From: an uncultured Alistipes sp.
GTDB taxonomy: Bacteria > Bacteroidota > Bacteroidia > Bacteroidales > Rikenellaceae
Direction of reading: 5' to 3'
Length of the DNA: 64,000 nt
Assembly (NCBI GenBank): GCA_947364365.1
Contig: CANASP010000007.1
Location: forward strand, 46,921 to 110,920
Positions 48,544 to 52,052 of the stretch are shown one piece after another (within the stretch, counting starts at the first letter, position 1; each line of letters starts with the position of its first letter). Position numbers and translations under genes: made by a program. The notes beneath the pieces were generated by a model. It had not been told where the DNA came from. It did no database searches and worked only from the letters and a program-made list of their open reading frames with translations.

Positions 48544-48985
48544 ATGAAAGATTTCGATTTTACACACCCACACAAGTCGTGTTCGGAGCGGATTCCGAGG
48601 CACAGACGGGCAAACTGGTAAAACGGCATGGAGGCACGAAATGGCCTGGCCCACGACGGCGATGTGTGGGATTTTTTCGCCGGCAGAGCCGAGGCGCGGG
48701 CGTGCTATCCCGTCGGCGTGGTGCCGACCATACCGGCAGCCGGCAACGAGATGAGCAACGGCTGCGTCATCACCGACAAGGACGGCAATCTCAAACGGGC
48801 ATACGACAACGACCTCGCCCGCCCGAAGTTCGCGGTCATGAACCGCGAGCGGACCTTTTCGCTGCCGGCGTACCAGACGGCGTGCGGTGCCGTGGACATC
48901 ATGATGCACACGATGGAGCGTTACTTCTCGCAGGAGGACGACATGACGCTGACGGACGAACTGGCGGAGGTTTGCTCCGCACCGT
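48544..48985 (+). pseudogene. Iron-containing alcohol dehydrogenase remnant
   Basis: Pieces of a Fe-ADH: MKDFDFTHPHK (48544), then in a second frame FGADSEAQTGKLVKRHGGTK, then in a third LAHDGDVWDFFAGRA and VVPTIPAAGNEMSNGCVITD, with CGAVDIMMHTMERYFSQEDD. Two frame changes and an internal loss between HGGTK and DGDVW (the Rossmann part) inactivate it. The C-terminal half, including the second metal His ligands, is missing and is replaced by an AraC remnant. Confidence 0.78.
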
Positions 48986-48989
48986 CAAG

Positions 48990-49292
48990 CAGAGCGCCCC
49001 GTTCTTGGAGCGGAACTACGCACAAGATCTGACGCTCGGACAACCCGCCCACTACACGGGCCGGAGCCTGTCGGCATTCAAACGCGATTTCGCGGCAGCG
49101 TTCGACGGCGAAACGCCGAGCCGCCGGATGGTAAAACGGCGTTTGGACGCAGCCTACGACCTGCTGAAACGCGGGGAGAGCACTCCCGCCGAGATTTATC
49201 TGAAGGTCGGCTTCAAGAACCTATCGCACTTCTCCACGACATTCAAGCGGCGGTTCGGGATCGTACCGTCGGCGCTCCGCCGCGATGCGTAA
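48990..49292 (+). pseudogene. AraC-family regulator C-terminal remnant
   Basis: Only the DNA-binding part survives: TGRSLSAFKRDFAAAFDGET, KRRLDAAYDLLKRGESTPAE and VGFKNLSHFSTTFKRRFGIV, a double HTH of the AraC/XylS family. No N-terminal sensor domain or start; it is fused in frame to the ADH remnant by a deletion. The last 70 bp overlap the convergent invertase gene. Confidence 0.75.
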
Positions 49293-49973
49293 CGGAGCCG
49301 TATCGGTCGGCGCGGGGCGGAAACACCCGGCATCCCAATGCTTGCGGCCGCTTATCCTCTGCATATAGAGCTCGTTGATCCCCGCGTCGGTCCGGCGTAC
49401 CCGATGAAAGGTCTTCAGCGAGACGTCCATCGTCCGGCATATCGCTGTCAGCGTGTATCCTTCGCGCAACATCGCCATCACGTCATCGCGCCGCTTCAGC
49501 AGCGCCTGCTGCTTGACGCACGAGCCTTTCCGGCGCCCCAGCACCACGCCGTCGGCACGCCGTCCGGCCAAAGCTTCGCGCGTACGCACGGATATGAGGT
49601 TGCGCTCGATCTCCGCTACCAGTCCGAACGCGAAACAGAGCACCTTGCTGTTGATCGAGTCATCGAAGGCATAACCGTCTTTGGTGCTGTAGAGCACGAT
49701 GCCTCGTTCGAGGCAACGACCCATAATGGACATGATCTCGGTGAGCGTGCGGCTCAGGCGCGACAGTTCGGTGACGATCAGGGTATCGCCCCGCTTCATG
49801 CGCCGGAGCAACGCCCCGAGTTTACGTTCCCGGCCGCTCTTACGGCCGCTGACGATCTCCGTGAGCCAGCGGTCGATCCTCAGATCGCGCCGGGCCGCAA
49901 AACGGAGGATCTCCTCTCGCTGGTTTTCCAGATGCTGCTTTTCGGTGCTGATGCGCAAATAAGCTACGGTCAT
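49221..49973 (-). CDS. Mpi-family serine site-specific invertase
   Basis: 250 aa from ATG 49973 (MTVAYLRISTEKQHLENQRE). The catalytic Ser9 in YLRIST, the TLIVTELSRLSRTLTEIM block and LVAEIERNLISVRTREALA (helix E) are intact, followed by a C-terminal HTH (MLREGYTLTAICRTMDVSLK). It matches the master DNA invertase Mpi family of Bacteroidales, which flips promoters between inverted repeats. About 50 extra C-terminal residues read into the AraC remnant, probably because the native stop was lost. A promoter within the adjacent invertible segment currently points toward this gene. Confidence 0.9.
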   Translation of the reverse strand: MTVAYLRISTEKQHLENQREEILRFAARRDLRIDRWLTEIVSGRKSGRERKLGALLRRMKRGDTLIVTELSRLSRTLTEIMSIMGRCLERGIVLYSTKDGYAFDDSINSKVLCFAFGLVAEIERNLISVRTREALAGRRADGVVLGRRKGSCVKQQALLKRRDDVMAMLREGYTLTAICRTMDVSLKTFHRVRRTDAGINELYMQRISGRKHWDAGCFRPAPTDTAPLRIAAERRRYDPEPPLECRGEVR

Positions 49974-50047
49974 AATCGGAGTCTTAATCGGAATTATGAC
50001 GCGAAAGAAAGTAAAAAAGCGGAGTCGGAAGGCCCGTCCGGGCAGAA

Positions 50048-50180
50048 AAACGTTCGTTTGATATCCTGTGCTGCAGGCATTCGTCTTGTAAAACAAAAAT
50101 AGACATTTTCCATCTGTTATCCAAGAAAAACTTGTAAAAAAGTACCGATCGGACCGATCGCGGGAAATAAACGAACCTTT
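50048..50180. promoter_or_regulatory. Predicted invertible promoter segment flanked by Mpi-like inverted repeats
   Basis: Left arm aaacgttcgttt (50048-50059) and right arm aaacgaaccttt (50169-50180; reverse complement aaaggttcgttt) match at 11 of 12 positions in inverted orientation. The left arm fits the Mpi half-site consensus ARACGTWCGT as I remember it; the right arm differs by one base. Between them, on the minus strand, is TATTTTTG (50101-50094) with CTTG about 20 bp upstream (50125-50122): a Bacteroidetes promoter pointing left, toward the invertase. No such promoter points right. Inversion would place it ~60 bp before the 50195 start codon. Confidence 0.72.
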
Positions 50181-50194
50181 CTTGACCGACCAGA

Positions 50195-50926
50195 ATGAAC
50201 GCCAATACGTTTAACGACTACTACGGCCAACACATTGCCCGCGTACAGCAAAACGCGCTGCGGAGAACGCTTCCCGCATGGCCCTATATCATCCCGAGAT
50301 TGCCCGATGCCGGCATCGCGATCCAGGACTCCGGAATCAAAAGGCATTTCGTTCCGTGCGGAATCCACTACGACTGGTATCTCTCCGGCGTGATATACCG
50401 CGCGGGAATGATCACCTACGTGCCGTTGCCCTACTGGCCCTATGCAGCGATCAGCTTCGAGTTTTCGGGCTGTTACATGGCCAAGCTGTGTTTCCGAGGC
50501 GACTGGTACGCCTTCCACATCGCGACCAGCACGACGCCGGCCGACGATTGCAAACAGGTGTGGAAAGATTTTCTCGCCCTCCACAAGCAGGACATCACCA
50601 CGTTCGTCATGTGCCGGCCGACCTCTGTCAAGGACCTTTTCGACAAGTATGCCGAACTGCATTACAAACGCTCGCGTTCCGTCATGCTGGCCGGCCTGAT
50701 CGCCGAGGACAACCAATGCTACACGCTGGTCTACGATTACGATTCAGCGCAGGTCGCGAAGATGCAGCCGGACAACGTCCGTACGGATCTTATCCGGACG
50801 TGTTCTCCGGAATTGCTGTGCCACGAGGCCGACCGGAACTATTTCACGCAACTTATGAACAAAAACAAACTATGGGTGGATTCTGGAGCAGAGAAAAAAA
50901 CAGCACGCAGACCCTGTCGGATCTGA
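50195..50926 (+). CDS. Unknown protein, first gene of the DUF2589 cassette
   Basis: 243 aa, no signal peptide or membrane span. Tryptophan- and tyrosine-rich centre: YGD-like HYDWYLSGVIYRAG, LPYWPYAAISFEFSGCYMAK, LCFRGDWYAFHIATS, then DDCKQVWKDFLALHKQDI. I recognise no family. The pattern GCxMAxxxxxGxxYAxHI suggests a compact globular enzyme-like or effector-like fold with conserved Cys and His, but no activity can be assigned. The last 55 bp overlap the next gene. Base composition is less GC-rich than the core genes around it, consistent with transfer. Confidence 0.75.
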   Translation: MNANTFNDYYGQHIARVQQNALRRTLPAWPYIIPRLPDAGIAIQDSGIKRHFVPCGIHYDWYLSGVIYRAGMITYVPLPYWPYAAISFEFSGCYMAKLCFRGDWYAFHIATSTTPADDCKQVWKDFLALHKQDITTFVMCRPTSVKDLFDKYAELHYKRSRSVMLAGLIAEDNQCYTLVYDYDSAQVAKMQPDNVRTDLIRTCSPELLCHEADRNYFTQLMNKNKLWVDSGAEKKTARRPCRI

Positions 50927-51381
50927 TCCGCGGACTGCAACACTCGGTCAATGCGGCCATGGAGATGGTCGAGACCCGCAATGTGGAGCTTCTGGGGCGC
51001 TATTTCTCGCCCGAAGGCGATGCGCTGACCAAACGGCTCAAAATCGATGAGCAGACGACCGTCGAGGTGCCGCTGATTTCGATCGTCAACCCCTCGACGA
51101 TCAACATCAAGGAGGTAGAGATGGATTTTTCGGTACAGATCAATTCGTCGGACCTGCGCTGCAAACAGCCTCAAAAAGGGTTTCTGGCCGGGGAGGAAAG
51201 CGCCGATTTCGACAACCGGCTGAAACGGACGAGCCTCGAAATAGGCTTCGACGGACAGAAGGATCTCTCGCGCATGCAGGTACATATCAAGTTCGAGGCG
51301 AAAGCGATTCCCGAGGGGCTGTCGCGCGTGATCGACGAATACGACAAGACGATCGTGCCTTTCACGCACCGAAAAGAGTAG
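50872..51381 (+). CDS. DUF2589 domain-containing protein 1
   Basis: 169 aa from ATG 50872 (MGGFWSREKNSTQTLSDLIR). An N-terminal helix (LIRGLQHSVNAAMEMVETRN) is followed by beta-rich sequence VEVPLISIVNPSTINIKEVEMDFSVQI, then QVHIKFEAKAIPEGLSRVID. This matches DUF2589 proteins (helix plus sheet; function unknown), which commonly occur as neighbouring paralogues. It overlaps the upstream gene by 55 bp and precedes a second DUF2589 gene by 28 bp. Confidence 0.85.
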   Translation: MGGFWSREKNSTQTLSDLIRGLQHSVNAAMEMVETRNVELLGRYFSPEGDALTKRLKIDEQTTVEVPLISIVNPSTINIKEVEMDFSVQINSSDLRCKQPQKGFLAGEESADFDNRLKRTSLEIGFDGQKDLSRMQVHIKFEAKAIPEGLSRVIDEYDKTIVPFTHRKE

Positions 51382-51409
51382 CGACTTCACTGATTCAATA
51401 TTTACGACT

Positions 51410-51994
51410 ATGGCAAACAACAACGACCCCGCGAGCAAATTCGCGGGACTTCCCATCGCGGAACTCATCGCCGCACCGCTCACAGCCGCCTGCGATTCGC
51501 AGAAGAAACTGGCGCAGTCGGCTTTCGAATTCATGACCGAAATCGGTTACAGCGACGCCGAAAAACAGACGCCTCGGCTGCTGAGCTTCAAGCTGGAACG
51601 CCCCATAGAGGGGGCTACCGAGACGCAGCGGATACAGGTCAACGCACCGTTTCTGGGTCTGGCACCGCTGCCGTCGCTGTTGATCGACGATGTGCAGATC
51701 GACTTCCAGATGGAGGTGACCACCACCGAAACCTCGAAGGAGACCGCCGACAGCGAGGCCTCGACGAACGTCAATTCGAGTTTCAAGTTCGGGTGCTTCG
51801 CCAAGGGGACGGTAAGCGTCAACGGCAAGGTCTCCTCCTCGCGCGAAAATACCCGTTCGACGAACCAGACGGCGAAATATCAGGTTCGTGTTTCGGCGCG
51901 CCAGCAGCCGCCCACCGAGGGGTTGAGCAAACTCATGGACATCATGGCCTCGTGCGTCGAACCGGTGAAACTGCAAGACAGCGCCGGCAACTGA
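51410..51994 (+). CDS. DUF2589 domain-containing protein 2
   Basis: 194 aa, MANNNDPASKFAGLPIAELI. The N-terminal GLPIAELIAAPLTAACDSQKKLA helix and the beta region FLGLAPLPSLLIDDVQIDFQ and QYQVRVSARQ-like KYQVRVSARQQPPTEGLSKL are typical DUF2589 features. A Ser/Thr/Glu-rich insert at ~100-125 looks flexible. Paralogous to the upstream gene but divergent. Last gene of the cassette; a strong terminator follows 20 bp later. Confidence 0.87.
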   Translation: MANNNDPASKFAGLPIAELIAAPLTAACDSQKKLAQSAFEFMTEIGYSDAEKQTPRLLSFKLERPIEGATETQRIQVNAPFLGLAPLPSLLIDDVQIDFQMEVTTTETSKETADSEASTNVNSSFKFGCFAKGTVSVNGKVSSSRENTRSTNQTAKYQVRVSARQQPPTEGLSKLMDIMASCVEPVKLQDSAGN

Positions 51995-52013: not shown

Positions 52014-52052
52014 CGAGGACCGCCCTGCACACAGGCGGTCCTCGTCTTTTTC
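52014..52052 (+). terminator. Terminator after the DUF2589 cassette
   Basis: Perfect 11-bp stem cgaggaccgcc / ggcggtcctcg followed by tcttttt. Confidence 0.9.

Follow-up and report, generated by a model that had tools for sequence, protein, structure and literature searches.

Switches that work by promoter inversion are already known, and here we compare with them a locus in a 64,000-nucleotide stretch of DNA from an uncultured Alistipes sp. (assembly GCA_947364365.1, contig CANASP010000007.1, positions 46,921 to 110,920; hereafter the window, with positions counted from its first letter), where a serine invertase gene and a three-gene cassette flank a putative invertible promoter. In the fim switch of Escherichia coli, as proposed for this locus, segment orientation governs recombinase expression, but the recombinases are tyrosine enzymes, the cargo is fimbrial, and fimE is controlled via its transcript and not by sole ownership of a promoter. 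The Mpi system of Bacteroides fragilis shares with the window a serine recombinase of Mpi-like type and a TANNTTTG promoter enclosed by short inverted repeats, and its ON/OFF control through inversion is what we propose here. Mpi is a global master, whereas in the window one recombinase lies beside one site pair, the promoter would be shared with the cargo, and that cargo is neither a capsule nor a recognizable surface protein. The BF2766/Tsr19 system of B. fragilis likewise has a recombinase gene adjoining a promoter, IVp-I, that is inverted by that recombinase and is reported to be OFF in culture and in most fecal samples tested; it differs in having a tyrosine recombinase, an exopolysaccharide cargo, and action also on a distant promoter (PMC4747536).

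We put at roughly 70% the probability that positions 50048–50180 form an invertible promoter whose inversion is catalyzed by the neighboring Mpi-like serine invertase, OFF as assembled, and shared by recombinase and cargo. With the segment as assembled (OFF), the single promoter would serve the invertase, and the cassette, a predicted cysteine hydrolase with two DUF2589 partners, has no consensus promoter. Strand exchange at the central TT of each dyad would turn the promoter toward the cassette (ON) and would also deprive the invertase of its only consensus promoter, so that the one promoter would express either the recombinase or the cargo but never both. The portions of the open-licence literature searched yielded neither a promoter owned by either recombinase or cargo nor a deamidase-like or DUF2589 cargo of promoter inversion.

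Putative recombination sites and promoter

The predicted invertible segment (50048–50180, with 121 bases between crossover points) is bounded by 12-bp inverted repeats carrying one mismatch, as the initial annotation had described. The left site (50048–50059, plus strand) is a perfect dyad, AAACG-TT-CGTTT. The right site (50169–50180), read on the minus strand as AAAGG-TT-CGTTT, has its mismatch in the outer half, a part that would not be relocated by inversion. Between the sites lies a Bacteroidota-type promoter, TTGG-N19-TATTTTTG (50094–50124, minus strand), that faces the invertase 120 bases away. Between 49201 and 52100, neither strand has any TANNTTTG other than its −7 box (50094–50101, minus strand), which has TTGG 19 bases upstream, and over that interval no consensus promoter faces the cassette in the assembled orientation. 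A single leftward promoter inside the repeats and none toward the cassette had both been predicted and were found, although the −33 element is TTGG and not TTTG. Inversion would set the −7 box 60 bases ahead of the first cassette gene, in agreement with the anticipated ~60 bp, and 64 bases ahead in G137, a genome with a closely related locus.

Taken singly, each part of the switch is only mildly unusual. When the 221-base intergenic stretch was shuffled 1500 times with dinucleotides preserved, 43 shuffles gave an inverted repeat of comparable quality, 84 a perfect dyad of five bases on either side of TT/AA, and 22 a promoter match. With one mismatch allowed, the window has 11 occurrences of the loose site motif ARACGTWCGT, no excess over the mean of 11.09 in shuffled sequence. 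Because similar parts arise in shuffles, the case for a switch rests on cross-species conservation and not on rarity.

The genome of the window (2.15 Mb in 38 contigs, 87% complete) contains 87 site matches with at most two mismatches, compared with 85 for a reversed control pattern. Reading through those 87, we found the 50048/50180 pair to be the only inward-facing pair less than 600 bases apart with at most three mismatches in total. The equivalent pair is again the only such one among the 34 site matches with at most one mismatch listed for G137, against 21 for the control. A single inward-facing pair argues against global action of the invertase, although sites of other sequence or in the missing parts of the genome are possible.

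Conservation and orientation at related loci

Across 180 genomes of the genus, 21 places are related to the invertase, and the exact module is present in two genomes. Only three of these places, the window included, reach at least 79% identity, and each adjoins the cassette or a remnant of it; the nearest relatives, in G137 (81% identical) and G204 (79%), both have DUF2589 genes alongside. The other 18 places show 56–66% identity, and the cassette proteins were not found around the six of them whose surroundings were examined. The linkage of the two closest relatives shows that this invertase lineage is tied to the cassette type.

In an alignment of the window with G137, the blocks around the left site (15 of 15 columns), the right site (18 of 18), and the −7 box (14 of 14) are unchanged, whereas 42 of 90 columns match in the rest of the segment; the blocks were picked after the alignment had been seen. 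The −7 box is identical in G137, and its right site carries the same mismatch as that of the window. The left site of G137 ends in CGTTA, and the first 11 bases of the window's left site fall within the 15-column block. Conservation of the repeats in homologous loci is therefore borne out in G137 for both sites but in G204, where the cassette is reduced, for the left site alone. In the latter genome, an invertase, a left site, and a promoter directed at the invertase persist; within 12 kb, cassette genes 1 and 2 have no match, and the third is matched from residue 15 onward only. An apparent degenerate right site was seen just ahead of the remaining coding part (locus L064, 6600–7348).

The closest copy of the cassette that lacks an invertase, L075, has the gene order of the window and a first gene 53% identical, with no invertase match in 12.6 kb. 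This cassette has a fixed promoter directed at it, the −7 box lying 65 bases before the ATG. Upstream regions were examined for nine of the 12 loci without an adjacent invertase: three have a full promoter facing the genes, two a −7 box only, and four neither. A more distant relative, in G142 (L070, 5970–7770), has an invertase 64% identical to that of the window, sites of the same kind, AAACGTTCGTT and AACGAACGTTT, and a promoter between them facing the invertase. Because these elements adjoin a different operon, fimbria-like by eye with no family search made, a module of this kind can serve other cargo. An additional −7 box lies between the G142 segment and its invertase, and we therefore restrict to the cassette loci the claim that a single promoter is shared exclusively.

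Because both sites and the −7 box are conserved, the fixed promoter of L075 stands at an equivalent distance, and the closest invertases are cassette-linked, the reading of the segment as an Mpi-type invertible promoter, OFF in the window copy, is well supported on sequence grounds. Two results qualify it. The invertase scores 250.8 bits against the Mpi model NF009949, under the curated equivalog cut-off of 272, which sets it apart from B. fragilis Mpi; the proposed family thus holds as regards the resolvase domain and the model match but not the score. In addition, the phase variation that had been predicted lacks an inverted counterpart: the promoter faces the invertase in all four copies (window, G137, G204, and G142), and the opposite orientation was not found in the available genomes. 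These are single assemblies from different species, so the agreement neither shows nor excludes inversion. An invertase made in the assembled state alone should send cells gradually into the opposite one; the orientation bias would then mean either selection against ON or an invertase with very little activity.

The uniform orientation would also suit a fixed, autoregulated promoter, with the dyads serving as operators for self-repression by the invertase and nothing inverting. An inverted repeat, GTCATAAT/ATTATGAC (49969–49976 and 49993–50000), spans the invertase start codon; its arms are retained in G137 with an altered loop, which suggests a further layer of control, and its RNA can form a hairpin (z −1.4 and −2.7). 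Translational control or an operator function is possible for this repeat, which was not seen in G204. We nevertheless regard a fixed promoter as unlikely: the promoter is flanked on either side by full crossover-type dyads that have a central TT and are inverted relative to each other, and under this reading the cassette would be left with no consensus promoter, yet its closest invertase-free copy has one.

A decaying relic, in which a formerly working switch has frozen while the cassette is being lost, would fit the mere remnant of the third cassette gene beside an invertase, left site, and promoter in G204, the broken DUF2589 genes of G138, which has no adjacent invertase, and the frames left of the window invertase that resemble gene remnants. 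All four genes of the window locus are open, however, and between species the sites and −7 box have stayed constant where the remaining segment has diverged, making this explanation quite improbable. We give equally little credence to transcription of the cassette from a weak non-consensus promoter independent of the segment, with inversion regulating the invertase only, since the post-inversion distances of 60 and 64 bases match the 65 of L075, even though four of the nine invertase-free upstream regions likewise lack a consensus promoter.

The invertase and cassette genes

The invertase gene P0001 (49221–49973, minus strand) is an intact open reading frame of 250 amino acids, found as predicted, with a complete resolvase domain (PF00239, residues 3–143, E = 3.3 × 10−31 in a Pfam search). 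It is the only NF009949 match across the window's genome. Its C-terminus is ~43 residues longer than that of the G137 invertase. Frames at 48579–49292, overlapping the 3′ end of the gene, resemble by eye a truncated iron-type alcohol dehydrogenase and the C-terminus of an AraC-type regulator.

The cassette runs rightward on the plus strand as P0002 (50195–50926), P0003 (50872–51381), and P0004 (51410–51994), together filling the 50195–51994 interval given in the initial annotation. The two downstream genes match DUF2589 (PF11655; gathering cut-off 23 bits), P0003 with 70.5 bits (E = 2.7 × 10−19) and P0004 with 125.5 bits (E = 3.1 × 10−36), and P0004 is 86% identical to its G137 counterpart. 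The description as a DUF2589 cassette holds for this pair but not for P0002, which has no Pfam match. The terminator attributed to the cassette is present as a terminator-like hairpin on the plus strand (52015–52050), with a perfect 10-bp stem and a 9-nucleotide loop followed by a T tract; it was read from the sequence by eye, as the hairpin scanner was limited to loops of at most 8 nucleotides and did not list it. A second P0002-type protein is encoded downstream of the DUF2589 pair in G137 (L020, 5858–6604).

P0002 is fast-evolving, and the 11 members of its type gave no convincing Pfam match. Gly92, Cys93, and His108 are invariant in all 11 sequences, with Cys and His 15 residues apart in an FSGC-x14-H motif. 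The solved folds nearest to the P0002 model are BLF1, CNF1, CNFy, and CheD, with weak Z scores, and P0002 has no sequence match to any PDB chain. The model and the invariant Cys and His lead us to predict a cysteine hydrolase of the CNF1/BLF1/CheD type, deamidase-like in character. The cassette would plausibly be a costly effector-like unit that is silent in most cells.

DUF2589 genes beside diverse enzymes

The DUF2589 domain occurs in 28 of 395 genomes drawn from the phylum and in 7 of 200 relatives. We chose ten proteins encoded beside DUF2589 genes for a Pfam scan, by eye and not as a random sample, so the toxin-type neighborhood is a pattern to test and not a statistic. Four of the ten score above the cut-off for a family of enzyme or toxin type: an OTT_1508-like deaminase that follows a DUF2589 pair, where the P0002-type gene would otherwise stand (L080, 6577–7071), a patatin (L114), a peptidoglycan-binding domain (L092), and, encoded on the opposite strand, eCIS_core plus an AHH nuclease (L084). 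Another two neighbors match below the cut-off, to Exo_endo_phos (L092, cut by the locus end) and Peptidase_C58 (L099), and the remaining four have no meaningful Pfam match. On a Vibrio tubiashii plasmid, genes for a peptidoglycan-binding protein, an alpha/beta hydrolase, and an endonuclease/exonuclease/phosphatase lie within 6 kb of a DUF2589 match, all on the opposite strand.

We found no published function for DUF2589 in the open-licence literature searched, where accession PF11655 is unmentioned; a single paper there names the family, reporting up-regulated genes whose role is unknown. It is a tentative proposal, possible rather than probable, that the locus is a phase-variable effector cassette with a shared-promoter toggle, in which ON removes the enzyme needed for switching back, and that paired DUF2589 proteins serve in several phyla as general partners, whether carriers, chaperones, or neutralizers, of diverse toxin-like enzymes. 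Because DUF2589 genes recur beside variable enzymes, several of them toxin-type, the partner idea is directly testable and offers a functional lead for the family. If the invertible-promoter reading is true, promoter inversion in gut Bacteroidota would extend beyond capsules and surface proteins to a toxin-like enzyme that has no evident signal for export, through a circuit that renders recombinase and cargo mutually exclusive.
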